The notes under the pieces are model-generated. The model worked only from the letters and a program-made list of their open reading frames with translations. It did no database searches and was not told the DNA's origin. DNA of 64,000 nucleotides, from contig NZ_CP007057.1 in assembly GCF_000517625.1 (NCBI RefSeq), positions 248,001 through 312,000 of the forward strand, written 5' to 3'. The position numbers were made by a program, and so were the translations under genes. This document shows, piece by piece, positions 3,557-37,502 of this stretch. How positions within the stretch are numbered: position 1 is the first letter of the stretch; every line of letters starts with the position of its first letter. Source of the stretch: Halostagnicola larsenii XH-48 (GTDB lineage Archaea > Halobacteriota > Halobacteria > Halobacteriales > Natrialbaceae).

Positions 3557-5422
3557 TCACTCGTGAGCCGCTTCGGTTGGCTGTAGATCGATATCCTCGA
3601 GCGCGACCACTATCGCGATATCACTCGGTCGGTCTGACTCGGGCACGTCGGGAACGACGACTGTGGGATGGTTGTCGTCGGAAACGTAGTACGGAACCGG
3701 TCCGTGGCCGAGCAATCGAACAGCGTAGGGGGAGTTACTGGGGGGCGTCGCGCCGCGCTTCGGCGGGATATCGTCGGGTGTATCTGCCGTTTCAGCATCG
3801 GTGCGGAACGCATCACCGTGTTCAGTCGGCTTTCGGCTCTGTTCGGATGGTCCGGCGCAGTGTTCAGGTGACGGTACTCCGTGTCCGGGTGGCGTTCCAC
3901 CGTGTCCGGGAGGGGTGAAAGGTGCGTTTGTGGGGTTACAGACCTCCATCCCCTCGAACGCGAACTCACCGGGGCCTGGCCACCCCATCACGATAGCGTA
4001 CACGGTGTCACCGTCTTTCGAACGCGTATATCGGACGTCTTCGGGTCCGTACTCGACATCGCCGATGAATTCCCCACCGGCTTCAACTCTGGTCGGCCCC
4101 TCACCGAACGCATCCCACGGGCGCGTTTCGTAGATCGCGTCACCGTTCGTCTCGAGCCACTCGCCGATCGCTATCAGCCGGTCACGTTCTGTCTGTTCGA
4201 TCGTTCCGTCGACTCTGGGGCCAATACTCAACAACAACTGTCCGTTTTTGCTGACGATATCGATCAACACGTGGACGAGGTGCGTCGCGGAGTGGAAGGT
4301 GCGGTCTTCGACGTATCCCCAACCGCCTTCGTCCGCGACTTTGAACTCCGCGTTCCACGCCTGCTCTTGCATCTCTCGAGGCCGCCCGAGTTCGAAGTCA
4401 GCCACGCTGACGTCCATCGGCAGTACATCGTGCTTGTTCGTAGTGACGACGTCCCGATCCCACTCTGTCGCTTGGTTGTGGTAATACGCGAGAAAGCGCT
4501 GCTGGTACTCCTCGGGGATATCAGGGAGTCCCCAATCGAACCAGACGAAATCGGGCTGGTATCCCGAAATCACTTCTGCGAGTTTGGCGAGCCACGTATC
4601 GTACTGCAATGCCTCGGGGAGGTTCCCGTACATCACTCGATCCGGGTAACCCTCCGTAACCGATTCGTAGTTCTCGTACGCGAACGAGAAGTAGCCGTCC
4701 TCGCCGATCAGATTGTACGAGTGATGGAACGTCGTGACGAACCGCATGCCCCGGTCTCGGATCGCGGACTCGAGTTCGCCCGTGAGATTTCGTTCCGGTC
4801 CAGTGTCGACGGCGTTCCAGGGGGAAACGTCTGAGTCCCACAGCGACCAGCCGTCGTGGTGTTCGACGACCGGGCCTGCGTATTTCGCTCCCGCTCGATC
4901 GAAGAGATCGGCCCACTCTGCGGCGTCGAACGCCTCCGCGGTAAACTCTGGAATGAACTCCTGGTATGGGTGTGAATCGGGTTCACCGTACGTTTCGATG
5001 TGGTAGTCGTTGATGCTGTTGTCGAGATTGTACATCTGGCGTGGATACCACTCGTGCGCGTACGCCGGGGCCGAGTACGGCCCCCAGTGACAGAAGATGC
5101 CGAATTTCCCGTCTCGGAACCACTCCGGGACGTGAGTTACGTTGGCGAGGGAGTCCCAGTCCGGTTCGAATGGGCCATCGTCGACGACCGATCGGACGTT
5201 CGAAACCGTTTCGTCGACTCGCTTTTCGAACGCCTCGAAATCGTCGGGAGCAGACCGTGGCGGTCCGGCTGTCGCCGGCATCACCCCAACTGTCGATCCC
5301 GCCACCATCGCTGCGCTGGCCGCGAGAAATCGTCGCCTCGGTGCTTTGCGCTCCGTCGACCGCCTATCTATCTCCGTGTCGATGCTTCGATCTGTGGACG
5401 AGTCTTTGTCAGTCATTCTCAT
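3557..5422 (-). CDS. Tat-exported alpha-L-fucosidase (GH29)
   Basis: A 621-residue secreted glycoside hydrolase. A Tat signal (RRRFLAASAAM, residues 30-40) precedes the barrel. GH29 landmarks are CHWGPYSAP (111-119), EHHDGWSLWDS (187-197) and DFVWFDWG (291-298), where D296 is the expected nucleophile; the acid/base is not fixed by a motif in this family. It removes terminal L-fucose from glycans outside the cell. The C-terminal beta-sandwich region carries a Gly/Pro/His-rich insert (about 480-555) containing TPPGHGGTPPGHG, absent from ordinary GH29. ATG 5422 gives a TATA spacing of 33 nt; ATG 5416 is an alternative. The adjacent importer and lactonase make this the entry point of the locus. 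Confidence 0.92.
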   Translation of the reverse strand: MRMTDKDSSTDRSIDTEIDRRSTERKAPRRRFLAASAAMVAGSTVGVMPATAGPPRSAPDDFEAFEKRVDETVSNVRSVVDDGPFEPDWDSLANVTHVPEWFRDGKFGIFCHWGPYSAPAYAHEWYPRQMYNLDNSINDYHIETYGEPDSHPYQEFIPEFTAEAFDAAEWADLFDRAGAKYAGPVVEHHDGWSLWDSDVSPWNAVDTGPERNLTGELESAIRDRGMRFVTTFHHSYNLIGEDGYFSFAYENYESVTEGYPDRVMYGNLPEALQYDTWLAKLAEVISGYQPDFVWFDWGLPDIPEEYQQRFLAYYHNQATEWDRDVVTTNKHDVLPMDVSVADFELGRPREMQEQAWNAEFKVADEGGWGYVEDRTFHSATHLVHVLIDIVSKNGQLLLSIGPRVDGTIEQTERDRLIAIGEWLETNGDAIYETRPWDAFGEGPTRVEAGGEFIGDVEYGPEDVRYTRSKDGDTVYAIVMGWPGPGEFAFEGMEVCNPTNAPFTPPGHGGTPPGHGVPSPEHCAGPSEQSRKPTEHGDAFRTDAETADTPDDIPPKRGATPPSNSPYAVRLLGHGPVPYYVSDDNHPTVVVPDVPESDRPSDIAIVVALEDIDLQPTEAAHE

Positions 5423-6840: not shown

Positions 6841-7845
6841 ATGAGTTCATCAAATATCGTAACGCGTCAGTTTGATCGGCTTCCCGAGCAATCGGTATTG
6901 ATTCTGATCGAGAACATGATTTGGCCGATATTGGCCATTATCTCCTTTTTTATTCTACTTTTCGTTCCACGAGTCTTTACGAATACAGCCACGCTCGAGT
7001 TGATGTTGTTCGCAGCGGTACCACTCGGTCTCATTGTCTTAGCGGAGAGTATCTGCCTACTATCGGGGCACTTTGATCTCTCAGTCGGTGCAATTGCCGG
7101 GTTCTCAGCTGTATTCACCGCAATGGCACTTGCTGAGTGGAACCTCATCGCTAACCCGTTTCTCGGGATCTTGCTTATCATCGCTGTCGGATGTGCAATT
7201 GGCGCGATGAACGGTATTATGATCGCCAAATTCGGCATGAACCCATTTCTACAGACGTTAGCGTTCTTCATCATTTTCGGTGGTGGCAAACTCGCGTTGA
7301 CGACACAGCCCATTTCAGGGCTTCCAGAGGGATACACTGCGGCAGGAAACAGCGCTCCTGTCGCAATTGGTATCCTGCTCGCATCCTTTGCAGTCATGGC
7401 AGGAATATTCAAATATACGGAGTTTGGGCAGGCCGTATATGCTGTTGGTAGTGACAAAGAAGCGGCACGCGCTGTTGGAATTAACACTGAACGAACAATT
7501 ATCTTGGTCTACACACTAAGTGGATTCTTTTGTGCAATCGCTGGACTGATGCTGTCCGGGTACACTGGACTCGTCTCACCAAACGTTGCCGACGATATGG
7601 TGTTCTCAGCCTTTGCGGCCGCGATAATCGGTGGAATCAGTCTCTTTGGAGGCCGCGGAAAACTACTCGGGGCCCTCGGTGGTGTATTGCTGCTTAGCAT
7701 CATCGAAACGGCACTGACTGTTAGTGGATTCGATCCAACGCTCATCGAAGTAATGAACGGTATCGTCCTCATGATCGCGATCCTGCTATACAACATGAAA
7801 GAGAACATCCGTGGACAGGTTCTGTCAGCGGGGGCAAACACATGA
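6841..7845 (+). CDS. CUT2-type sugar ABC transporter permease
   Basis: A 334-residue integral membrane protein with about ten hydrophobic segments. LLSGHFDLSVGAIAGFS is the family signature of RbsC/XylH-type permeases, and FAAAIIGGISLFGGRGKLLG near the C-terminus is the ATPase-facing loop. Only one permease gene is present, so it should act as a homodimer. The ATG at 6841 follows the binding-protein stop by 19 nt; the ATPase gene overlaps its end by 4 nt (ATGA), indicating translational coupling. Confidence 0.9.
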   Translation: MSSSNIVTRQFDRLPEQSVLILIENMIWPILAIISFFILLFVPRVFTNTATLELMLFAAVPLGLIVLAESICLLSGHFDLSVGAIAGFSAVFTAMALAEWNLIANPFLGILLIIAVGCAIGAMNGIMIAKFGMNPFLQTLAFFIIFGGGKLALTTQPISGLPEGYTAAGNSAPVAIGILLASFAVMAGIFKYTEFGQAVYAVGSDKEAARAVGINTERTIILVYTLSGFFCAIAGLMLSGYTGLVSPNVADDMVFSAFAAAIIGGISLFGGRGKLLGALGGVLLLSIIETALTVSGFDPTLIEVMNGIVLMIAILLYNMKENIRGQVLSAGANT

Positions 7846-8636
7846 GTAGCGAACGAACGAATATCACTGACACTAACGACCAGTTGCCCGAAACGAACAG
7901 CATAATCTCTATCGAACACGTCGAGAAGCTCTTCGGCCGCATCGTTGCACTCGAGGATGTCAATTTGACGGTCCGTGAGAACGAAATTCTCGCGCTCATT
8001 GGAGATAACGGTGCAGGGAAATCTACCCTGATGAATATCCTCTGTGGTGTTCACAAACCGACGGCGGGGACGATCAATCTCCGCGGCGAATCAGTCGAAT
8101 TTGAAAGCCCAGAAGAGGCTCGTAACCGTGGAATCGAAACGGTGTATCAGGATCTAGCACTGATGGACGATCTCGATGTGGCGACGAATATCTTCATGGG
8201 AAACTTCCCGTCCAGAAAGTTTGGGCCTGTTAACTCTATCAACTGGGACAAAACGTACAGTCGAGCCAAAAACATCATCGAGACTCACCTCAAACGCGAT
8301 ATTAACCCCCGTGCCGAGGTCGAGTTCCACTCGGGCGGGGAACGACAACTCGTCGCAATCGCTCGAGCGCTCGCGTTCGATCCGGATATTGTCATTCTGG
8401 ACGAACCGACGAGCGCCCTCTCGGTTGACGCAACCGAGCTGGTTCAGGATACAGTTCGGAATCTCCAGGAGAACGGGAAGACGATTATTATCGTCAGCCA
8501 CAGTCTCGATGAAATCTTCGAACTTGCAGACCGGGTCGGTGTCCTCTATCAGGGACGAATAGCAGAGGTTGCAGATACTGACTCGGTGACGAAAGACGAA
8601 CTCAGCTCGTTGATGGTGACCGGTCAGCGATCGTAA
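7842..8636 (+). CDS. CUT2-type sugar ABC transporter ATPase (single domain)
   Basis: A 264-residue ATPase with Walker A GDNGAGKST (54-62), a signature loop reading HSGGERQLVAIARAL, Walker B VILDEPTSAL and switch His in IIIVSHSLDE. Classical RbsA/XylG proteins have two fused ATPase domains (about 500 residues); this one has a single domain and must dimerise, as in FrcA-like systems. The signature serine is kept but the preceding leucine is His. It completes the three-gene importer operon. Confidence 0.9.
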   Translation: MSSERTNITDTNDQLPETNSIISIEHVEKLFGRIVALEDVNLTVRENEILALIGDNGAGKSTLMNILCGVHKPTAGTINLRGESVEFESPEEARNRGIETVYQDLALMDDLDVATNIFMGNFPSRKFGPVNSINWDKTYSRAKNIIETHLKRDINPRAEVEFHSGGERQLVAIARALAFDPDIVILDEPTSALSVDATELVQDTVRNLQENGKTIIIVSHSLDEIFELADRVGVLYQGRIAEVADTDSVTKDELSSLMVTGQRS

Positions 8637-8750
8637 CCGAAGCACTGTTCGTACTGAACTGCCTCGAGGCACTCGCCTTGTTTATTTGTAGAATTCTGCT
8701 TCGATGCACCTCCCCCTTACTCGAGCCAGTCCTTTACGGCGGACCGAGAC

Positions 8751-25640: not shown

Positions 25641-25910
25641 AAGTTGTGTACAGTCTATTGTGGGAGCCTGTACGGCACGTGACTGGTGCTATCCAGAAAA
25701 CCCGTGCACCGGCGAAGACGGAGCCGCCGACGAACCTGCTCGTCGTGCTGAAAGCGGCGCGCTGGTATTACATTCACAGTAAGGGTGGATCCGATCCCGC
25801 GTTCCAGTGGGCGATCAAGTGGGCCCGCCATCTTGCGACCGACATACCCAGTGATGTTGACCGATTCGATGAGTTTTTCGAGTATCTCGTCAATAGCGGT
25901 CGGTCCCGCG

Positions 25911-26669
25911 TTATAGACTGAACCGCTCGCCGTCCTCAGGAACGTGCACATCCGCTGTCTCTGCCCGCAGTTCCTCGCGCGACAGCAAGCAATGGTTGAT
26001 TGCCTCCATATGAACGACCACTATCTCGGCGTCAATGGCCTCGCGGACAGCGTTGACGTCCTCGATGCCCATCGTGATGGGTTCGCCCTGATCGAACTGC
26101 GCTTCGCCACCGTTGAGAACGACCAGATCGGGTTCGTACTGGTCGAGTGTCTCTTCGACCGGCTCGTACCAGATCGTGTCCCCGGCGACATACACTATCT
26201 CGTTGGCCTCGAAGACGAAGCCCGAGACCGGGCCCATTCCCTCGGCGAGTTCGCCGTGCCCGTGCTGACTCGGCGTCCGGTGGATAGTGATGCCCTCGAA
26301 GGAGGTTTCGTCATCGACGGGGCGAACGTCAGTGAAGCCCTCGTCAGTGAAGGCGTCGGCCTCCTCAGGCTGACAGAACAGCGGCACGTCGACATCGAAT
26401 TCCTCTCTGGCCGCCTCGTCCCAGTGGTCGGGGTGGCGGTGAGTGACAACCACAGCGTCGTAGGTGAGATCAACGTCAGGCAGCGGAACAAGCGGATTCC
26501 GATCCTGATTCGCCGTGGTGAGGAACTCCGGAAGTGCCGGGTTGTCTGTCACCGTTGGCATCTCGCCCTGCGGCGTGAACATCGGATCCACGAGAAACGT
26601 CGTGTCACCGACATCCAGGAGGATAGTCGCGTTGCGAATCAGCTGAACACTAGCACCAGTCGTTGCCAT
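25911..26669 (-). CDS. MBL-fold metal-dependent hydrolase (UlaG-like)
   Basis: A 252-residue metallo-beta-lactamase-fold protein. VVVTHRHPDHWD gives the HxHxDH metal site; later ligands are His in SQHGHG, Asp in VYVAGDTIWYE and His in VVVHMEAINH. The N-terminus lacks a signal, so it is cytosolic. This subgroup includes lactonases and general hydrolases; the substrate is not predictable. The ATG at 26669 starts the first strand; the 17 codons upstream add nothing. A truncated HTH_10 gene lies 75 nt upstream on the same strand and may once have controlled it. Confidence 0.85.
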   Translation of the reverse strand: MATTGASVQLIRNATILLDVGDTTFLVDPMFTPQGEMPTVTDNPALPEFLTTANQDRNPLVPLPDVDLTYDAVVVTHRHPDHWDEAAREEFDVDVPLFCQPEEADAFTDEGFTDVRPVDDETSFEGITIHRTPSQHGHGELAEGMGPVSGFVFEANEIVYVAGDTIWYEPVEETLDQYEPDLVVLNGGEAQFDQGEPITMGIEDVNAVREAIDAEIVVVHMEAINHCLLSREELRAETADVHVPEDGERFSL

Positions 26670-26744
26670 ACCCGGGCCTACGAGAGACGTCGGGGTGGGA
26701 TTTACTTCGACATATTCCAACCGTCGAGGAGTTCGACGTGTCGT

Positions 26745-27149
26745 TTACTGGATGAACTCGATGTCCTCGGAATCGAGATCCACGTCCAGGTCAACCTCGA
26801 GCGAATCGGCCGCGAACTGTTGTGCCAGCCACGCCTCTGCTCGGTTGAGACGGTACTGGAACGTCGACCGTGACACACCGACGTCTTCGGCGATTTCCGT
26901 GACCGATTGCTGCCGTGGCTCTTCGTAGTACCCACGTTCGATTGCAGCCTCGAGTGCTGCCTTCTGTTCGGGCGTGAGCGTTTGCTGGACGCGATCGTCT
27001 TCGAGCAAGCACGGCGGCGTGCCGAGTCGTTCAACAGTAAGCGACAGCCCCTCTCGCAGATTCGCTCGGACGTCCTCGTGAATCTCTGAGACTGTCCCGT
27101 CGATAAGCATCCGCCACCGGTACTGGTCGCCACGCCGCTCCGTGCGCAT
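26745..27149 (-). pseudogene. HTH_10 (Bat-like) regulator, N-terminus cut off by a TnpB element
   Basis: The 134 residues kept end in the HTH_10 domain: LTPEQKAALEAAIERGYYEE, then SVTEIAEDVGVSRSTFQYRL, which is the signature of haloarchaeal bacterio-opsin-activator-type regulators. The family is usually 200 or more residues long with an N-terminal sensory part. Here the sequence upstream of ATG 27149 becomes the right end of the IS1341-type element, so about 80-100 residues are missing. The ATG may allow a truncated DNA-binding protein to be made, but its promoter is the IS end. Confidence 0.65.
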
Positions 27150-27160
27150 TTTGACCTCCT

Positions 27161-27197
27161 CCTCCGCGTTCACGCGGAGGAATCCCACCACGGGATT
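27161..27197 (-). repeat. Two stem-loops at the element right end
   Basis: CCTCCGCG-TTCA-CGCGGAGG (27161-27180) is a perfect 8-bp hairpin with a 4-nt loop, followed directly by AATCCC-ACCAC-GGGATT (27181-27197). Subterminal hairpins of this kind mark IS200/IS605 ends and are part of the omegaRNA 3' region. Confidence 0.65.
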
Positions 27198-27225
27198 TCA
27201 GGCCTACCGTTGCGGCCTGTTGGTT

Positions 27226-28482
27226 TCAAGACGCATACGTTCCGAGCGTCACCTGCTGGGTTTCAGCATCGGCCTGGCTGTCTTGTGGCCCGGTCAAAGA
27301 GGCCCCATCCGTAGCCGAGTCATCGTCACCGGCCTTCTGCCGGGAAGTCCGGTCGCTTTGGCGGTGACTCTCTCCACCACGGTAGCGGTCTGCAATGTTT
27401 ATCGCCCCGTTCACGTCGGCCTGATACTCACCGACCCAACAGCCGTCGTTCGAGCATTGGAACGTCGCCTGTCGTGGTCGGTAGCCGTGTTCACCGCAGG
27501 CGTGGCATGCCTTCGACGTGTTCCGGGGATTCACCGTTTCGACGGGAATCCCTTTCTCGGCGGCTTTGTAGCGAATCTGTGCATGGAGTTTCGCAAAGCC
27601 CCATCCGTGCAACCGCCGGTTCATGTATTCGCCGTAGTCCATATTCTCACGGATGTATGTCAGGTCTTCTAGCACCAGTACTGGATTCTCGACGGACTCG
27701 GCGTACTCAACGACCTCGCTGGTCACATGGTGGAACACGTCGTCAATCCGGTCCCACAGTGCGTCACCGTAGGACTCTGCGATTCGTTCACTGCCACGCT
27801 TCTGAAGACGTCTTATGGCGGTGAAGTAGGTTTTGCGGAGCCGACGAACGGCCTTGCCGTCGTCGGCCCACAGGCGGGGGCGAACCGGAGAACCGCTCTC
27901 GTCGCAGTGACACACCGTGACAAGACTCGCTTCCCCGATGTCAACACCGATGGGCGTCCGCTGACGAGCGGACGCCCCTGATTGATCCTCCACGTCGCGA
28001 GCAGCGGTGACGTGGAGATACCACGTCCCGTCGCGCTCGAACAGCCGACTTTCACCCATCTCAGCATCGTCTGCGTACACCGCTTCGAGCAACTCCCGCT
28101 GGTCGGGATTGGCGTGTGCCGGTATCCAGAGGTGATAATCCTCGTGGTGTGGGATTTTGACGTACCACTCGATAGCGTTCTGTGGCTGGTGGTCAAGTTG
28201 GAGTCCCTCGTTGGTGAACCGGACAGGGTGGTCGTCATGAAGCTCGTCGGCGTCGTAGCTGTTGTGGAGTTGTGGGACGTACATCTTGAGGGCATTTTTG
28301 GCGTAGCCACTCAGGTCGTACTCGACAACCACGTCGTTGGCCGCTGACTGTGTGTCACAGCCAGCAGCGAACGCGGCCTGAAGCGCCTGCTGGTAAGCAT
28401 CCCGCGTCTCACGAAGCTTCTCTCGCTTGTGGACGTTCGGGTCCACAAGCTTCAGTTCGAGTGTTTTCGTAACCTCGCCCAT
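27226..28482 (-). CDS. tnpB: TnpB RNA-guided nuclease, IS1341-type
   Basis: A 418-residue TnpB with all parts present: an N-terminal wedge/REC-like region, RuvC motif I with D181 (GVDIGEAS), motif II with E272 (VLVLEDLTY), a four-Cys zinc finger (C326, C329, C343, C348) and RuvC motif III with D356 (YQADVNGA). The catalytic acids are intact. A Ser/Asp/Gln-rich tail of about 50 residues follows. TnpB cuts DNA at sites matching the guide RNA made from the element's right end, which helps the element persist. The downstream hairpins fit this. Confidence 0.93.
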   Translation of the reverse strand: MGEVTKTLELKLVDPNVHKREKLRETRDAYQQALQAAFAAGCDTQSAANDVVVEYDLSGYAKNALKMYVPQLHNSYDADELHDDHPVRFTNEGLQLDHQPQNAIEWYVKIPHHEDYHLWIPAHANPDQRELLEAVYADDAEMGESRLFERDGTWYLHVTAARDVEDQSGASARQRTPIGVDIGEASLVTVCHCDESGSPVRPRLWADDGKAVRRLRKTYFTAIRRLQKRGSERIAESYGDALWDRIDDVFHHVTSEVVEYAESVENPVLVLEDLTYIRENMDYGEYMNRRLHGWGFAKLHAQIRYKAAEKGIPVETVNPRNTSKACHACGEHGYRPRQATFQCSNDGCWVGEYQADVNGAINIADRYRGGESHRQSDRTSRQKAGDDDSATDGASLTGPQDSQADAETQQVTLGTYAS

Positions 28483-28714
28483 CGTCGCCGTACTTCATCT
28501 CTTGGTTGTGAGAAATATATATTTCAGCCATCCAGAGTGGAAGTGAAGCGGTGAGAAATCCGGCACTGCAAAGAACAGTGGACAGTCACATTCTGCTGTC
28601 CGCTCGGCCCTCGCCTGTTCGCTCCTCACTTCCGACTGGCGTCGGAACACTCCTCACTCAAGGGAAGGTGGGAGTATGCGCTCGTACCTCTATCACCAAC
28701 TCAATCGAGTGGGG

Positions 28715-28745
28715 TTTACTCCAGAGTAATTTACCTCAGGGTAAA
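28715..28745 (+). promoter_or_regulatory. Two tandem palindromic operators
   Basis: TTTACTCCAGAGTAAT (28715-28730) and TTTACCTCAGGGTAAA (28730-28745) are two 16-bp palindromes sharing one base, with centres 15 bp apart. The inner arms are TTACTC/GAGTAA and TTTACC/GGTAAA. The second ends 31 bp before ATG 28777, where the TATA/BRE should lie, so a bound regulator would block initiation. The encoded winged-helix protein is the likely binder. Confidence 0.65.
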
Positions 28746-28776
28746 CTACTTGCCGTCATGACGTGTATCGTGTCGT

Positions 28777-29190
28777 ATGAGCACTGACCTGGGGACTGTT
28801 GAGGGAATGGAGCCTCGCGAACTCGTCCACTTCGTCACCCAGCAAACGCGGTTTGCCCTCATCAACAACATCCTCCAGCATCCTGATCAGCTCCCGTCGA
28901 TGTACGAACTCGAGGAGCTCAATCCCAGTGTCAGCGACGCCACCGTCTACAAACACGTCCAGAAGCTGATCGACGCTGGTATCGTCAAAGAGGTCGCCCT
29001 CGACGATGACGAACGTCGACAGGGGTACCCGTGGAAGTTCTACGGGCTCACCGAGGAGGGACGTGAATTCCTCGACGACCACAACCTCCTCGCAGCCGAG
29101 GAGACGCTCCAACAGATCTACGACACAATCTCAGACAAGCTCGAGAAGATGGTCAAGTACGAGAACGCTCCCCGTCCGGAAGAAGCGTAA
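28777..29190 (+). CDS. Winged-helix transcriptional regulator (PadR/phiH-repressor-like)
   Basis: A 137-residue DNA-binding protein. The winged helix covers about residues 20-105: LPSMYELEELNPSVSDATVY (second and recognition helices), IVKEVALDDDERRQGYPWKF (wing) and YGLTEEGREFLDDHNLL. The end is a helix suited to dimerisation. Phage phiH-type repressors and plasmid copy regulators of haloarchaea have this make-up. Two overlapping palindromes sit on its own promoter, giving autoregulation. No partner gene follows on this strand; the next gene is convergent. Confidence 0.8.
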   Translation: MSTDLGTVEGMEPRELVHFVTQQTRFALINNILQHPDQLPSMYELEELNPSVSDATVYKHVQKLIDAGIVKEVALDDDERRQGYPWKFYGLTEEGREFLDDHNLLAAEETLQQIYDTISDKLEKMVKYENAPRPEEA

Positions 29191-29222
29191 CTCCCGAAAG
29201 TTCGGCCCGAATTAGCACTCGA

Positions 29223-30144
29223 TCAGGATTCGATTTTGTAGTCAGTCGCCAGCTCCTGGAACTCGTCGCACTCCGGAAGACGGTCGTCGTCGACCTCGCC
29301 GTGGGTCTCGAGGTAGTGGAGCAAGGCGTCGATTTTGTCTTCGAGGCCATACTTCACCGCCTGCTCTCGGAGGTCTTCTTCGTCGACATCGACGTGGCTG
29401 AGCAGGAGGAGACAGTACGAGTGGTGGCGGCTGCCGTCGTCGATGAGCAGCGTGTGACAGCAGAGTTCCGCCGGCGAGACTGCGTCGAGTTCCTCGGAGT
29501 AGACGTAGTAGCGGTGGGCGGTGAGCAGGAACTGGAGGCCAAAGGCCGCGAATCGAGCGAGACCGGTTTCGTGGAACCCCTCCGCGTCGGTCTCCGTCTC
29601 GGCCTGGGCGAGGAATTCGTCGTAGTTCTCCCAGAGGATCGTTCCCTTCGGGGCAACGGCTTCGAGGCGTTGGCGATGCAGATGGTGTGCGAGTTCACGT
29701 GCGAATTCGTGGAGGCGGTCGAAGTCGGCGTTGAAGTCATAGCGGCCGTCGTCCGTCCCGACGAGACCCCGGTCGCGAAACCGCTTGAGGACTCGGTTGA
29801 CCGTGTTGCGGTAGTTGTCGCTCCGGTCGGCGATCTCGGAGACGGTTCGCGGCTGGTCGATGTAGTACAGCACTTCGAGTGCCTTGCCGGTCAACAGCTC
29901 GGGGAAGTCGATGTGGGAGTGCTGGCGAACGAGGTCCTGATAGAGTTCGACGGCGCGAGCATCCGACGGGACGACTCGTTTTCGGCGGCCGTCGCGTTCC
30001 GTGTAGACGAGCCCCTTCTCGACGAGGTCGCCGATGGCGCGAGAGAGATAACTCTCGCTGTGGTCGAGCTTCGTCGCGAGCTCTGAGATCGTGTCACCGT
30101 GTTCGACCGTGGCGAGGAACCTCGAGTTCGATGCGCCGGAGCAC
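29223..30144 (-). pseudogene. Frameshifted two-domain winged-helix regulator
   Basis: From GTG 30144 the start reads MLRRIELE (GTG as Met), then goes out of frame; one base later FLATVEHGDTISELATKLDH continues without interruption to the stop at 29223. The long second frame has no usual start codon before TTG 29894, and a TATA box TTTATAAACC (30167-30176) is correctly placed (about 27 nt) for GTG 30144. So one extra G around 30120 breaks the gene. The protein has an N-terminal winged helix (SESYLSRAIGDLVEKGLVYT) and a second one (TVSEIADRSDNYRNTVNRVL), then a helical C-terminal domain. Intact length would be about 306 residues. Confidence 0.7.
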
Positions 30145-30235
30145 GGTGTAACTTAGTAGGAAACTGGTTTATAAAGAAGTTTCGAGTAGTGTTACAGTCA
30201 GCAGGTGCGGGAGCCGGCCCTATTGTCTTAACCAA

Positions 30236-30390
30236 CTAAACACCTCTCTCGCGAAATCGAACGAGATCAACATCGATGGGAAGCGTCTCGAAGTCGTCAT
30301 CGGCACCGGCGATGAGTGTCGCATCCGTCTCGTGGGTGAGTGCAACGCCTATCCCTGTCTCCCGTGGTGCTTGTTTGTCATGTGAACTCC
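30236..30390 (-). pseudogene. C-terminal stub of a PIN-domain (VapC-like) toxin
   Basis: The open stretch ends HETDATLIAGADDDFETLPI and then VDLVRFRERGV before a stop at 30236-30238. The pattern ALT-HETDATLIAGADDDF is the last third of a PIN domain, where the conserved Asp of the final acidic motif sits. No start codon or upstream two-thirds are present. It shows that another toxin gene once stood here. Confidence 0.5.
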
Positions 30391-30910
30391 GCTGCGTTCA
30401 AAATCTTAGCACCGGTCGAAACGATTGTACAAAAGGAGCCATAGTAGTATTCCTCATCTGTTGGATCGTAGTTCCACGCCGTCGGCATTATGGCAAATTA
30501 TTTGATGTGTTTTGAATTGATAGAGTATGTCGAAGACATCATTTATAGCATGTTCGAGTTCAGTGAGGAAGCGATTAATTGTGTCTCTGGATAGTGGTTT
30601 GTCAAGTGTGTAGTAGTAACCAGACGAGTGAGCTGGAATCTTTGTGTAACTGGACTGCGCCAGGGATCTTCTTGTAGTAGCATTGTAGAAAGCCGTGAAA
30701 GAGATTTAGTAGCCATTTACCTTGTGTTTCCTCGTTCGAATCGCAGTCGTGACACCTACTCACCACACCTAACTGCCTCACACATGATGTTTTTCTATGA
30801 CTCAGTTATATGCTACCGTTAGATATATCTTACCGCGGGAACCATGTACCAACATAGTAAAATAGTGAAGCAGGGAAGAACTTATCCGGATCTCTTAATT
30901 AAAATTTTGT
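30391..30910. other. AT-rich region with an open remnant
   Basis: GC falls sharply here. On the minus strand 30454-30705 is open for 83 codons without a start and reads SSGYYYTLDKPLSRDTINRF followed by a helix (LTELEHAINDVFDILYQF). The composition is protein-like, but I recognise no family; it may be a gene remnant. The rest holds nothing visible apart from the promoter of the next gene, with an A/T-rich TTAATTAAAATTTTG near 30895-30909. Confidence 0.35.
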
Positions 30911-32080
30911 ATGGCTCTCCAACGTCGTAATCTCCTCACTGCAATTGGTGCGGGAGTGATAACTACTTTCTCTGGGTGTATTAATAGCTTTCGTGAAACA
31001 AACCAACCAAAGGAAGGGGATTGGACACAAATTAGCAAAAATTCCCAACATACGGGATCAGATACATCAGTTCCGGGGATTTCTGAAGGCGATATTCATT
31101 GGGAGGTAGAATTTGATTCCAATGTTGATTTGATCGGTATTTCTGTCACAGATGACCAAATAATTCTGGCTGATAATCAAGGTGTAAAAAGTGGTTCTTT
31201 GCATAAAATATCCCTATCTGATGGAGATATCAAAGATACGTATGACCTGTCAACAAAAATCACAAGCCCGCCAGTAATTAGTAATAATTCGATTCTTACT
31301 ATTACTAACGCTAGAGATGAGATCAGCATTCTCAACGCATTTGACTACAACGGAACTGAACAATGGGGACATCAAATTTATGGTCGACTTCCTTCAGCGC
31401 CAACGATATATCAATCGACAGTCTACAGCGGTGACCAAAATGGAGTTGTCTACTCACTTGAGGAAGCGACGGGTGTAATTCACTGGGAGCGGCAATTTGG
31501 TGATGACAATGATACTGGATCTATTCCCGCACCACCAACAGTAGATGGAACTGGCGTATATATATCAGTAGATGGGTCCTCAGCACAGGGTATCTATTCC
31601 CTATCTCCGAAAGATGGAGAGATACAATGGAGCGTTGAGGGCCCACAAGTTCCATCTGTAATGACGCGAACAGGAGACTTGCTTCTCGCTAGTTATTCAT
31701 CGTACGAGCTTGTAGCGTTTGATATTCATACAGGAAAGCGTCGCTGGTCGACGAGCCTTTCTAAAAAGGATACCTCATCACCAGCAGTAGCTGAGGAGAT
31801 TATTGTGATTGCTGACGAGGAACAGTTATATGGACTTGATTTGGAGACTGGTGAAAAACAGTGGTCACTTCAATGTAACCCACAGACTACTAGCCAACCG
31901 ATTATCGCGGGTAACACCGCTATCACCAACACTGAGGATGGACTTGTTAGCTGTTCAGTATCTTCCGGTGAACGGTTGTGGTCCCTTGATAATAATTCGA
32001 CAATCCCCCTTGTTGCTGTCGAAAATGGGATTCTAATTAGCCCTGAAAGTAATGTACTTTCAGTGTATACGAGTTACTAA
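30911..32080 (+). CDS. Tat lipoprotein with PQQ-like beta-propeller
   Basis: A 389-residue surface lipoprotein. LQRRNLLTAIGAGV has the Tat motif and FSGCI the lipobox. The body is built from repeated blades, recognisable by the recurrent pattern of a Gly-rich turn, an Asp/Glu-Thr-Gly-xx-xW motif and a beta-strand: EATGVIHWERQF, DIHTGKRRWSTSL, DLETGEKQWSLQC, SVSSGERLWSLD. This is the PQQ/BamB-type eight-blade fold. Such propellers bind proteins or act as scaffolds; no PQQ cofactor need be assumed. It is clearly AT-richer than its neighbours beyond 35 kb, suggesting transfer. Confidence 0.85.
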   Translation: MALQRRNLLTAIGAGVITTFSGCINSFRETNQPKEGDWTQISKNSQHTGSDTSVPGISEGDIHWEVEFDSNVDLIGISVTDDQIILADNQGVKSGSLHKISLSDGDIKDTYDLSTKITSPPVISNNSILTITNARDEISILNAFDYNGTEQWGHQIYGRLPSAPTIYQSTVYSGDQNGVVYSLEEATGVIHWERQFGDDNDTGSIPAPPTVDGTGVYISVDGSSAQGIYSLSPKDGEIQWSVEGPQVPSVMTRTGDLLLASYSSYELVAFDIHTGKRRWSTSLSKKDTSSPAVAEEIIVIADEEQLYGLDLETGEKQWSLQCNPQTTSQPIIAGNTAITNTEDGLVSCSVSSGERLWSLDNNSTIPLVAVENGILISPESNVLSVYTSY

Positions 32081-32473
32081 ATACAAATATTGGGTATTAC
32101 ACGATCGGTTAAACTCGTCAAGGATGATAAAGCCATCCTATGACTAGTGGGATTCATCATGTTTCCGGAGTTCTTCAAGACGTTCAGGGTGAATTGCTGT
32201 TCTGCCAATCATACCCGATATGAAAATTGTTGAGGGGCACGTTTACCATTGCCTAGGAAGGATTTCGAGTGCGTGCTCATAGCGTCTTGTTTCTGGCCGT
32301 ACCAAGCCCTGTAGCGTGGATTTTGGCGTGATGACACTGTGCTGGTGAGGCAACTCAATCGAGCACGCTCGTGTGCAATAAAGATCAGTTTTCATCAACA
32401 TTATCTGCTCTTGCCAGCACCCATGTCACGCTCCTACTTCAGCGTGGAAAAAAGATAACCAGGAATAATGTAG
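32081..32473. other. Intergenic region, nothing recognised
   Basis: Convergent gap between the propeller lipoprotein and the secreted coiled-coil gene. On the minus strand a short open stretch near 32150-32220 reads MIGRTAIHPERLEELRKHDE, but it is isolated and without context. No repeat or RNA gene is seen. Confidence 0.35.
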
Positions 32474-33670
32474 CTAGATTGTACTTTCTAAAATATCGCC
32501 AAGATTATTTGACAGGCTCTCTGCAATCTTATAGTTAGCTAGTGCAATGACTAATGATTGTGTATCTTCTGGATTCTTCTTTGATTTTGAAGTTTCAAGC
32601 ATAGAGTTTGCATATCGCTCTCGACTATCTATCATATCCAATAACTCTAATGTGAGAGGATCTTCTTCAATTTCCTGTTTCGTTTGTTGAATACTTGTTC
32701 GTGCTGTTCTTGCTCTTTCATTTGTTGCCTCAATGGTTACACGCTTTTTGCTAACCCACGGGTTGGGGATAGAAGTCAAGTCACCTGCAACTAATCGCAT
32801 AGCATCGGATTTAATGCTATTTATAAATGCGACTTCTGTCAGCCCACGTTCCATCATAGTTTGAGTCTGACTTCGATACCCGTCCGCAGATTCTGCTACA
32901 ATTGATGCGTAATTATTAGAATTGTAAGACTTAGTCAGATTGGCACTAGTAGTTGAGACTGCCTTCTCATATCCCTCGATCGCAGATGAGTTATCGGTAT
33001 TCTCTGGATTTGAATTGTTTATGTGTTTCGAATCGCTCACATTCATAGATGCAGCCTTTATAGAGCTATAGGCCTGCGCTAAACATATTTCTTTTGGCTC
33101 ATCACCTGATTCAAAAAGTTCTGGAACTTGTTCTAGGTGATCTAGTGCAGAATTCAAACTATGTTGGATTTCTCCCTGTACAATAAGATCTTTCTTATTT
33201 GATGGCTGACGTTCTATGTCTTTCTTCGTCGTTTTAAGTTTGGAACGGATACTTTCTACTTCATTTATAATGGATTCTTCCGAAATATCTTCTGATTCAC
33301 CTTTCTGATATCCTTCAGCAGTGAATCCATTCATAGCTGCCTCTCTCGCCGTGATAAATGCCTCCCAATTATCAGATGTTTCCTTACTTTGCTTTAGTAA
33401 TGACTTCTGCCGGTTAGAATGTCTAGCAACAAAGGCATTGGTCTCTCTATTATCTACCGATTGTATTCCTACGCTATTATTTGCTTGTATTCCTGCGCTA
33501 GATTCAGCAAGTGACTGTGCTTGCCCAATTGCCTCATCAGATATTTTAACTGAAGGAGATCCCCTCCGTGAATTTGGGGCCGAAACAGAATTGGCAGCAG
33601 CTGCCGTGCCAATGCCGGAAATTCCTACTATTGCTCCTGCGATCGTACTGAGAGTGGTTCTACGTTTCAT
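32474..33670 (-). CDS. Secreted helical protein of unknown function
   Basis: A 398-residue exported protein. The start MKRRTTLSTIAGAIVGISGI resembles a Tat signal ending in AAAA, with cleavage near residue 26. The mature part is almost wholly helical, with repeated Ser/Lys/Glu-rich heptad-like stretches (ESIRSKLKTTKKDIER, TRTSIQQTKQEIEEDPLTLE), consistent with a helical bundle or coiled coil. No catalytic motif. It follows the 246-residue secreted gene by two bases, so the two are one operon. Base composition is AT-rich and codon use departs from the 40-64 kb genes. Confidence 0.7.
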   Translation of the reverse strand: MKRRTTLSTIAGAIVGISGIGTAAAANSVSAPNSRRGSPSVKISDEAIGQAQSLAESSAGIQANNSVGIQSVDNRETNAFVARHSNRQKSLLKQSKETSDNWEAFITAREAAMNGFTAEGYQKGESEDISEESIINEVESIRSKLKTTKKDIERQPSNKKDLIVQGEIQHSLNSALDHLEQVPELFESGDEPKEICLAQAYSSIKAASMNVSDSKHINNSNPENTDNSSAIEGYEKAVSTTSANLTKSYNSNNYASIVAESADGYRSQTQTMMERGLTEVAFINSIKSDAMRLVAGDLTSIPNPWVSKKRVTIEATNERARTARTSIQQTKQEIEEDPLTLELLDMIDSRERYANSMLETSKSKKNPEDTQSLVIALANYKIAESLSNNLGDILESTI

Positions 33671-33672
33671 GA

Positions 33673-34413
33673 TTATCGGTAAACCTGGAAGTTTGGGTAG
33701 TGATAGTTAGTGTTTGAATCATCGGTGCTGACCGGGCTTCCGTCAATTCTAAACCCTGCATCTGTACTTGTTCTTGCATTCATTCTGTACCAACCAGTTA
33801 CTACAGGTGTGTTCACATGTGTGAGCCAATTTATCCCTTGTACTGGAGGAGAATCATTGAATTTTAGGTGAACGTATGTCGTAGAATCCACCTCTCTTTC
33901 GACTGATTTGGAATCGTTCTGAAGTGCAAACGGATCTGGAAGAGGAAGATTTGAGGCACTACTAACAACGCTCACTAAATAAGATAGCGCTGCTTCAGCT
34001 ACAGGGTCGATCTCGCCACTACCACTATTACCCTGTTGGCTTTCTTGTAGATCTGTTATTCTTATACTTGTTCCTGGATTGCTAAATTCTTCGACTTCTA
34101 TTTCATGGTTTTTCGTACCTGGTATCCAGATTTGTGGGAAAATAATTGATCCCATATTTTTTGAATCATCATAAGATAAACTCATTGTGATTGACTGGGT
34201 GGCAGCTACTGGTTCATTTGTACTTGAGCTTGTTATTCTATCATCACCATAGGCAGCGGAATAGTGATCAACATAATTCCACTCATCATTGTATTCGAAT
34301 TGGTGTTCATCACTACCATACTCTACTTGATCAGCTGATGCAGTACCTGACGCAAGGGCTATAGCTCCCGCGACAGATGCTGTGGCCTTTTTTAGCCTAT
34401 TATCTTCAGGCAT
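33673..34413 (-). CDS. Secreted beta-rich protein of unknown function
   Basis: A 246-residue exported protein. KKATASVAGAIALASGTASA looks like a Sec-type signal with a cleavage site after ASA, unlike the twin-arginine signals of the other exported proteins in the window. The mature part is rich in beta-forming residues and Ser/Thr/Asn, with TSIRITDLQESQQGNSGSGE, STTYVHLKFNDSPP and an aromatic end. There is one pair of Trp-rich segments but no Cys. Its stop lies two bases before the start of the helical secreted gene. A TATA-like CTTAATAATG lies about 27 nt before ATG 34413. Function unknown. Confidence 0.7.
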   Translation of the reverse strand: MPEDNRLKKATASVAGAIALASGTASADQVEYGSDEHQFEYNDEWNYVDHYSAAYGDDRITSSSTNEPVAATQSITMSLSYDDSKNMGSIIFPQIWIPGTKNHEIEVEEFSNPGTSIRITDLQESQQGNSGSGEIDPVAEAALSYLVSVVSSASNLPLPDPFALQNDSKSVEREVDSTTYVHLKFNDSPPVQGINWLTHVNTPVVTGWYRMNARTSTDAGFRIDGSPVSTDDSNTNYHYPNFQVYR

Positions 34414-34740
34414 GCAATAATGTATGCTTAGACAACATTATTAAGACTATTGTAACTATCCATATGCAATAACCGATAGAAATAGTATGGGGAACCTTAC
34501 CATCCCCAGACAAAATCAGGAAGCCCCATCTGCTCACGGGCGCGAAGCGCTCGTTCGCATGGTCCGTGAGACCTCCGGTCTCATGTTACCTTCAAGGAGC
34601 GAACCGCGCAAGCGGTGAGCGAGTAGGGTAGGGAGGAAGTCACTGGGTATAGATGGGTTCGACCGCATACATAGTCCTCATGGGTATAGATACACCTATT
34701 ATAAACCCTGAAATAACGTTATGAGCGATCCTCATTCGTC
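34414..34740. other. Intergenic region with palindromes and a direct repeat
   Basis: GAGACC-TCC-GGTCTC (34568-34582) is a perfect 6-bp hairpin; GCGCGAAGCGC lies just before it. TGGGTATAGAT occurs twice (34644-34654, 34681-34691), 37 bp apart. Such hairpin-rich stretches occur in haloarchaeal intergenic DNA and may be ends of worn elements. No gene is seen. Confidence 0.45.
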
Positions 34741-36345: not shown

Positions 36346-36659
36346 CATCCTCAGCGCTGTGAACGGCACGGCTTCCTTGCACAGGAATACCGACTACCGA
36401 CCGGTAATGAGTCCCACCCTAACCTCGTTAAGCGATACGCTCCCAATTACTCTGAATTGGGGGGTATAGTTGCACGAGACCTTCAAATAACCAAAGGTTA
36501 TTCAACTCTGCTCTGGTAACGTACGATTCTCGTTCTTCTACAAATTTATATAATTTATATTAATAGTATAGTCAAGATAGACTTGTACGACCACTTTTTC
36601 TCGCTATCAACCTCAATCTGTTTCTTATCGACCGCTGTCAAGACCAACGACAACCGATC
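36346..36659. other. Intergenic region with a hairpin
   Basis: AATAACC-AAA-GGTTATT (36486-36502) is a perfect 7-bp stem-loop about 140 bp after phoD. The next stretch (about 36536-36575) is very A/T-rich. I see no gene; the IS6 remnant begins at its end. Confidence 0.4.
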
Positions 36660-36965
36660 TTGTGTATTTAATGCAATTAACCTATACTCACGGCTCTTTC
36701 TCGATGTCGGAGTCTCGGCCTGCGAGGTACCGATCTAGCTGCTGCGTTCTTGCACCGACTCACCGAGAAACACGATGTCGACGACATCGTGTTTCTCGTC
36801 GATGGCTACGACTATCTGCTGCCTTCTTTCGGTTAGGGTTGAGCGGTCAACTCGACTACGTCGAACGAAACTTCATCGAAAAGTGGTTTCACACGCTGAA
36901 GATTCGAGTCGACCGCTTCTACAACTCGTGGGGAGCAATCGAGCGAGCGTCGGAGAATAGATTGA
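36660..36965 (+). pseudogene. IS6-family transposase, middle part, several frameshifts
   Basis: Successive frames give CVFNAINLYSRLFLDVGVSA, then RGTDLAAAFLHRLTEKHDVD followed by IVFLVDGYDYLL, then LSGQLDYVERNFIEKWFHTL with KIRVDRFYNSW, and finally VGSNRASVGE before a TAG. Together they follow the catalytic core of haloarchaeal IS6-type transposases: strand with the second DDE Asp (FLVDG) and the helix with the Glu (NFIEKWFHTLKxRVDRF). At least three frame changes and one stop make it dead. The remaining C-terminus is found 2.1 kb downstream at 39048. Confidence 0.8.
36958..36965 (+). repeat. 8-bp direct repeat TAGATTGA, left copy
   Basis: The last 8 bases of the left transposase half; the same TAGATTGA (39048-39055) starts the right half. 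The two flank a 2082-bp segment. Confidence 0.6.
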
Positions 36966-37084
36966 ATAGTATATACATAACTACAATACACAAGGACCGA
37001 ACTAATCACTCAATATAGATGTTCTAGCGGAGATATTAAACTAGATAGTGCCGCTGCCATTGAGCTGTGAGAAAAAATCGAGGG

Positions 37085-37282
37085 TCCTGCGAATCGAACG
37101 CTACCTGTGGTGGAAGTGATGAGTACGATAGGCATTTTGCTCGTCATCTTTCCCGCTTCGTTCGGGCCGAGCAGCCAGATAACTGTCCCCGATTCGACAT
37201 CGAAGGATACGCCATCAACTGCTGTGATTCGATTCTCACTGGCTTCGAACGCTTTTGAGAGATTCCGAACGGAGTAGTGAAT
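37085..37282 (-). pseudogene. Fragment of an ABC transporter ATPase
   Basis: The stretch reads VRNLSKAF, TAVDGVSFDVESG and WLLGPNEAGKMTS, corresponding to the first strand, the A-loop area and a mutated Walker A (normally GPNGAGKTT) of a NatA/daunorubicin-type exporter ATPase. The signature and Walker B parts are missing, and the Walker Gly is Glu. A worn N-terminal fragment within the 2.08-kb insert. Confidence 0.65.
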
Positions 37283-37502
37283 CCGCCTGAGAACGCAATT
37301 CACTCCTGTTCAGACCAGTTGCTATAGCAGTGGAGTTACGCTCGAACCCTCCACTCTCGATGGATTCAACAGTGTCTTTCGTCCCACACTTACGCCTTCA
37401 ATTCAATACCCTATAAAAAAACGATCACTGTGTGAGAGTCTCGAGAGAGCAAGGAAAACCACTATCCTGTCGTCGCTGGTAGTACATCGGACCCCAATCC
37501 AG

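Follow-up and report, generated by a model that had tools for sequence, protein, structure and literature searches.

A probable split form of an exported beta-alpha protein, with a lipoprotein neighbour, in an AT-rich islet of Halostagnicola larsenii

An AT-rich islet in Halostagnicola larsenii XH-48 probably encodes a split, two-chain version of an exported beta-alpha protein, whose chains would form an extracellular complex accompanied by a surface lipoprotein, the whole travelling as a mobile accessory cassette; we put the probability of this reading at about 0.6. The window (the whole stretch of DNA analysed, 64,000 nucleotides of a 464,581-base contig) contains the following features in and around the islet, with genomes used for comparison designated by G numbers and their loci by L numbers.

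30236..30349, no strand: multi-copy repeat flanking the islet on its left side (G001 has 93-94% copies on other contigs)
30911..32080, plus strand: PQQ-type beta-propeller Tat lipoprotein, 389 aa, lipobox FSGC (PQQ_2 match; RR and lipobox; 48% ortholog in G228)
32474..33670, minus strand: helical Tat-exported protein, 398 aa, gene 2 of the pair (open reading frame; 48% ortholog in G228; hhalign match to the C-domain of fused relatives)
33673..34413, minus strand: beta-rich exported protein, 246 aa, Sec-like signal, gene 1 of the pair (open reading frame; 65% ortholog in G228; hhalign match to the N-domain of fused relatives)
34436..34445, minus strand: putative promoter of the pair, a TATA-like box CTTAATAATG that precedes the ATG of the 246-aa gene by 23-32 nt (by eye)
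34514..34646, no strand: multi-copy repeat flanking the islet on its right side (G000, G002 and G003 have complete or incomplete copies of 82-92% on other contigs)

An earlier sequence-only reading had described three genes for exported proteins, lower in GC than their flanks, two of them forming an operon with 2-nt spacing, and this description holds throughout. All three open reading frames are intact and lie where they had been placed, with export signals readable on each. The PQQ gene is convergent to the two-gene unit, within which 2 nt separate the end of the 246-aa gene from the ATG of the 398-aa gene, both here and in the cassette of G228. The islet (30840-34430) has a GC content of 0.418 against a window mean of 0.590, and no stretch of this size in the window goes appreciably lower (minimum 0.417). 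In its genes, GC at third codon positions is 0.30-0.34, versus 0.67-0.82 in neighbouring genes. AT-rich boxes resembling CTTAATAATG were also seen by eye ahead of the G228 beta gene and of the fused genes described below, at a comparable distance. A scan for bacterial sigma-70 promoters at the islet was set aside as uninformative for an archaeon.

To the left of the islet, the flank (about 25896-30241) is made up of stretches found on many haloarchaeal plasmids. Given this plasmid-type flank, the low GC and GC3 and the repeats at the borders, the islet is most simply read as an acquired piece within a mobile region. The right-border repeat (34514-34646) and a second multi-copy stretch at about 36630-37052, of which many diverged copies (about 67-81% identity) occur in all genomes of the genus, are likely to be insertion-element debris. 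Also present in the surroundings are a TnpB-like RNA-guided nuclease gene (Cas12f1-like_TNB; 27226-28482) within the plasmid-borne left flank, an adjoining Cas-like HTH gene (26745-27191), and a truncated ABC-transporter ATPase fragment (37010-37303) with a weak ABC_tran match, apparently a pseudogene.

The earlier reading had proposed that the helical and beta-rich proteins form a pair, which would have lost its basis had the two genes not co-occurred elsewhere. They do co-occur in G228, a genome of another genus of the same family, which carries all three genes in identical order and orientation and with the same 2-nt gap.

L042: 7585-8766, plus strand: PQQ gene of the G228 cassette (48% protein identity to the window protein)
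L042: 8846-10033, minus strand: helical gene of the G228 cassette (48% protein identity)
L042: 10036-10773, minus strand: beta gene of the G228 cassette (65% protein identity)

The neighbours of this second cassette differ from those in the window, and its GC content (0.49-0.53) is below that of most of its flanks. Between the two cassettes, third-position identity is 0.38-0.43 and fourfold sites are about 30% identical. Silent sites are thus saturated while the proteins retain 48-65% identity, which indicates that the genes are real and that their protein identity is maintained by purifying selection, as judged from these comparisons. The two close pair genes occur together in only 2 of 125 genomes of the family (the window genome and G228), which suggests that the cassette is transferred as a unit, but rarely; the genomes searched were samples of 392 and 234 from a larger order, and close split pairs number two. 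A third genome, G197, retains a short decayed remnant of the helical gene (L043 7707-7890). About 300 nt from this remnant, a 233-aa protein (L043 8184-8885) resembles, by eye, small immunity-like proteins beside the G228 cassette. There, 1-3 kb from the cassette, a 396-aa protein (L042 5179-6369) has a C-terminus that by eye recalls PDDEXK-type nucleases (DIDVV...NEVKN), and its gene is followed by two genes for related-looking small proteins (4487-5170 and 3716-4429). This group, which gave no Pfam match, is possibly a polymorphic-toxin-like gene with its immunity genes.

The strongest link between the two proteins comes from other haloarchaea. Profile searches with the helical proteins also hit longer open frames, which were then read: one each in G029 and G361, and one in G129, a genome from outside the family.

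L050:6366-8339: fused beta-helical Tat protein of G029
L052:5835-7733: fused beta-helical Tat protein of G361
L079:5324-7369: fused beta-helical Tat protein of G129

These are single Tat-exported chains of 632-681 aa with a beta-like N-half and a helical C-half, so that the order beta, then helical, is common to the operon and the fused chain. When compared by hhalign, the beta proteins matched the fused N-domain (score 44.9, E 4.3e-6; 80 column shuffles gave at most 20.9) and the helical proteins matched the fused C-domain (score 82.8, E 5e-11; shuffles at most 21.5), whereas the cross-comparisons of beta with the fused C-domain and of helical with the fused N-domain gave no match. For the beta half, identity is 17-20% and hhalign probability 74-87%, the support coming from profile statistics, collinearity and gene order; overall, the fused and window proteins share 16-20% identity. 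Weak beta matches in G030 (L054) and G402 (L021) were rejected as low-complexity or spurious frames. The fused and split forms thus share both domains, their order, export and an adjoining lipoprotein gene. They differ in that the former have one chain and one Tat signal, whereas the window and G228 have two genes separated by 2 nt, their products bearing a Sec-like and a Tat signal, and are a split relative of the fused family. As Rosetta-stone evidence, this same-order domain fusion indicates that the 246-aa and 398-aa proteins very probably act together, in line with the pairing proposed earlier. A further fused gene in G041 (L051, about 7060-8690) is broken by a transposase-like insertion, a near-identical copy being intact in G361.

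The split and fused forms also differ in their export signals. The PQQ protein has an RR motif and the lipobox FSGC, and the 398-aa protein has a Tat-like signal with RR at residue 3, whereas the 246-aa protein is without RR and has a Sec-like signal ending ASA|DQ, as does its G228 ortholog. No lipobox or PGF sorting motif was found in the 246-aa or the 398-aa protein. The earlier remark that one of the signals is Sec-like was therefore correct, and the feature is specific to the split form, as RR is present in all fused and standalone beta relatives and absent from the split beta proteins. Since the Tat route has been reported for 39-55% of haloarchaeal secreted proteins (PMC2945643), one Sec partner would not be odd by itself; the notable point is the Sec/Tat contrast between split and fused forms. 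It is conceivable that the beta protein piggy-backs with the helical protein through Tat.

Neither the 246-aa nor the 398-aa protein had a match in Pfam, NCBIfam, PHROGs, PADLOC or PDB sequences, profile searches of the PDB included, and by these comparisons their families are undescribed in the libraries searched. Beta domains occur alone, with a Tat signal, in three genomes from another family of the order (G171, G128 and G199). Landmarks of the beta domain are collinear, comprising a PGTKN-like stretch, a central A..A(F/L)-type helix, a PxP turn and a GW/GT strand, but an alignment of nine sequences of the family contains hardly any invariant residue and none that looks catalytic. As the family has no invariant polar catalytic residue, the beta protein is unlikely to be an enzyme, at least as far as conservation can tell. 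The helical domain has distant relatives among the Tat-exported helical proteins of other haloarchaea, some of which are lipoproteins. AF2 models from single sequences gave an all-helix structure for the mature helical protein, at low confidence (pLDDT 46), which agrees with its earlier description as helical; for the mature beta protein pLDDT was 32, and the term beta-rich reflects sequence character.

The lipoprotein beside the pair is a clear member of the PQQ_2 / BamB-like lipoproteins by profile, the 389-aa protein matching PQQ_2 (PF13360) at E 9.5e-31 with 107.7 bits, above the gathering cut-off of 27.6; its score against BamB (TIGR03300), 154.8 bits, is below the curated cut-off of 285.2. 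By its signal it is a Tat lipoprotein, as is usual in haloarchaea. To our knowledge archaea have no outer membrane, so the function of BamB would not apply to the 389-aa protein. The PQQ gene adjoins the split pair in both copies, window and G228, and the fused genes have a different neighbour, a small Tat lipoprotein of 138-152 aa. Its gene follows the fused gene at a distance of 3 nt in G029 and of 67 nt in G361; in G129 it lies upstream of the fused gene, in the same orientation. In G190, a 134-aa relative of this small lipoprotein adjoins a C-terminal remnant. Two-domain forms thus regularly adjoin a lipoprotein gene, but the lipoprotein is of two different kinds.

It is a serious possibility, although we would not bet on it, that the PQQ lipoprotein is an unrelated passenger and that the functional module is the two-gene unit only. 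Its gene is convergent and separately transcribed, the fused genes adjoin a different lipoprotein, and relatives of the PQQ protein, equal or lower in identity, occur without the pair in G381 (48%), G299 (42%), G001 and G039, which led us to reject the view that the PQQ protein is found only with the pair. The tie between PQQ protein and pair comes from two loci. However, in both of these the PQQ neighbour, its orientation and the gene order have been kept despite different flanks and saturated silent sites.

As to function, the earlier reading had likened the pair to pore-forming, surface-appendage or antagonistic systems, but no family or motif points specifically to any of the three. One tentative possibility, which we hold at clearly below even odds, is a surface or extracellular scaffold or a capture system, in which the complex would coat the cell or matrix, or bind a phage receptor, a glycan or a nutrient, and the PQQ propeller would dock it at the membrane. 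The apparently non-catalytic beta module, the kinship of the helical module with Tat-exported helical proteins and lipoproteins common in haloarchaea, and the propeller, a domain typical for protein-protein docking, are all consistent with such a role. Less easily accommodated are the pair proteins themselves, which carry neither anchor nor sorting signal, and the occurrence of the PQQ lipoprotein without the pair.

Possible too, and in our view only slightly less likely than a scaffold, is a two-component secreted antagonist of the archaeocin type, whose complex would damage competitors, perhaps through the central helix of the beta protein, while a cell-surface lipoprotein, the PQQ propeller here and the small one beside the fused genes, would protect the producer. 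The predicted signals would leave both chains released and unanchored, as expected of archaeocins, the distribution is patchy and mobile, and a membrane lipoprotein adjoins both split and fused forms. A precedent for a two-gene secreted archaeal antagonist is given by the sulfolobicins SulA and SulB of Sulfolobus, two secreted proteins from one operon that are both needed and whose antagonistic activity has been shown (PMC10117752). The likeness is in organisation only, that is, a two-gene operon for secreted archaeal proteins: sulfolobicins are crenarchaeal, it is for them and not for the window pair that antagonism has been demonstrated, and we claim no relation in sequence. Outside the signal, the beta protein is most hydrophobic in its conserved central helix (mean hydropathy 1.22), but this helix is not a clear membrane segment and is less hydrophobic in relatives. 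In addition, Pfam, NCBIfam and PDB sequences gave no match to a known family of pore-forming toxins, and neither toxin nor bacteriocin families were matched; the lipoprotein neighbours are candidates only for an immunity function, and no obvious immunity gene lies beside the standalone beta genes. Mobility and patchiness, for their part, would suit many accessory functions. Mobile archaeal surface-protein modules with a proposed role in conflict or recognition are also known from Thermococcales (VARTIG; PMC8416519), but these are built on large hypervariable Ig proteins, none of which is found at the islet. Antagonism and surface scaffolding or capture are not separable from sequence data.

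That the pair encodes virion or provirus proteins is very improbable, since, despite the mobile AT-rich context and an integrase-like gene fragment adjoining the fused genes of G361 and G041, there was no match in IMG/VR scans, phage records or PHROGs and Tat signals would be unexpected on virion proteins. Both tblastn in plasmids and phages and related-locus searches of genome contigs and viral contigs came back empty.

The reading that we prefer, a split exported protein with its lipoprotein on a mobile accessory cassette, can be put as follows. The two-gene operon would encode as separate halves a beta-alpha protein that is a single chain in other haloarchaea. The halves would be exported separately, beta apparently by Sec and helical by Tat, and we infer that they meet outside the membrane and associate non-covalently, giving a complex that corresponds to the fused chain. 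As the beta domain also exists alone, the beta module would be the core and probably binds a ligand or surface, and the helical module probably scaffolds or oligomerises, although this division of labour is conjectural. The PQQ lipoprotein would most likely keep the complex at the membrane face or shield it there. Our guess at its role is surface interaction with other cells or a ligand, which we favour over enzymology given that the beta family has no invariant polar catalytic residue.

A wider and still less probable proposal is that these proteins constitute a binary haloarchaeal complex for antagonism or recognition, with a beta and a helical module on one chain or two, which would be released from the cell and, at the producer, neutralised or anchored by an exchangeable surface lipoprotein; if true, it would be a new kind of haloarchaeal system. 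Little is known about how archaea affect their surroundings and neighbours through secreted proteins. Two proteins without a database family are now tied to each other by gene order, joint inheritance and domain fusion, which makes cheap tests possible, and the split pair offers a natural case in which one exported chain has been replaced by two, seemingly on different routes (Sec and Tat).
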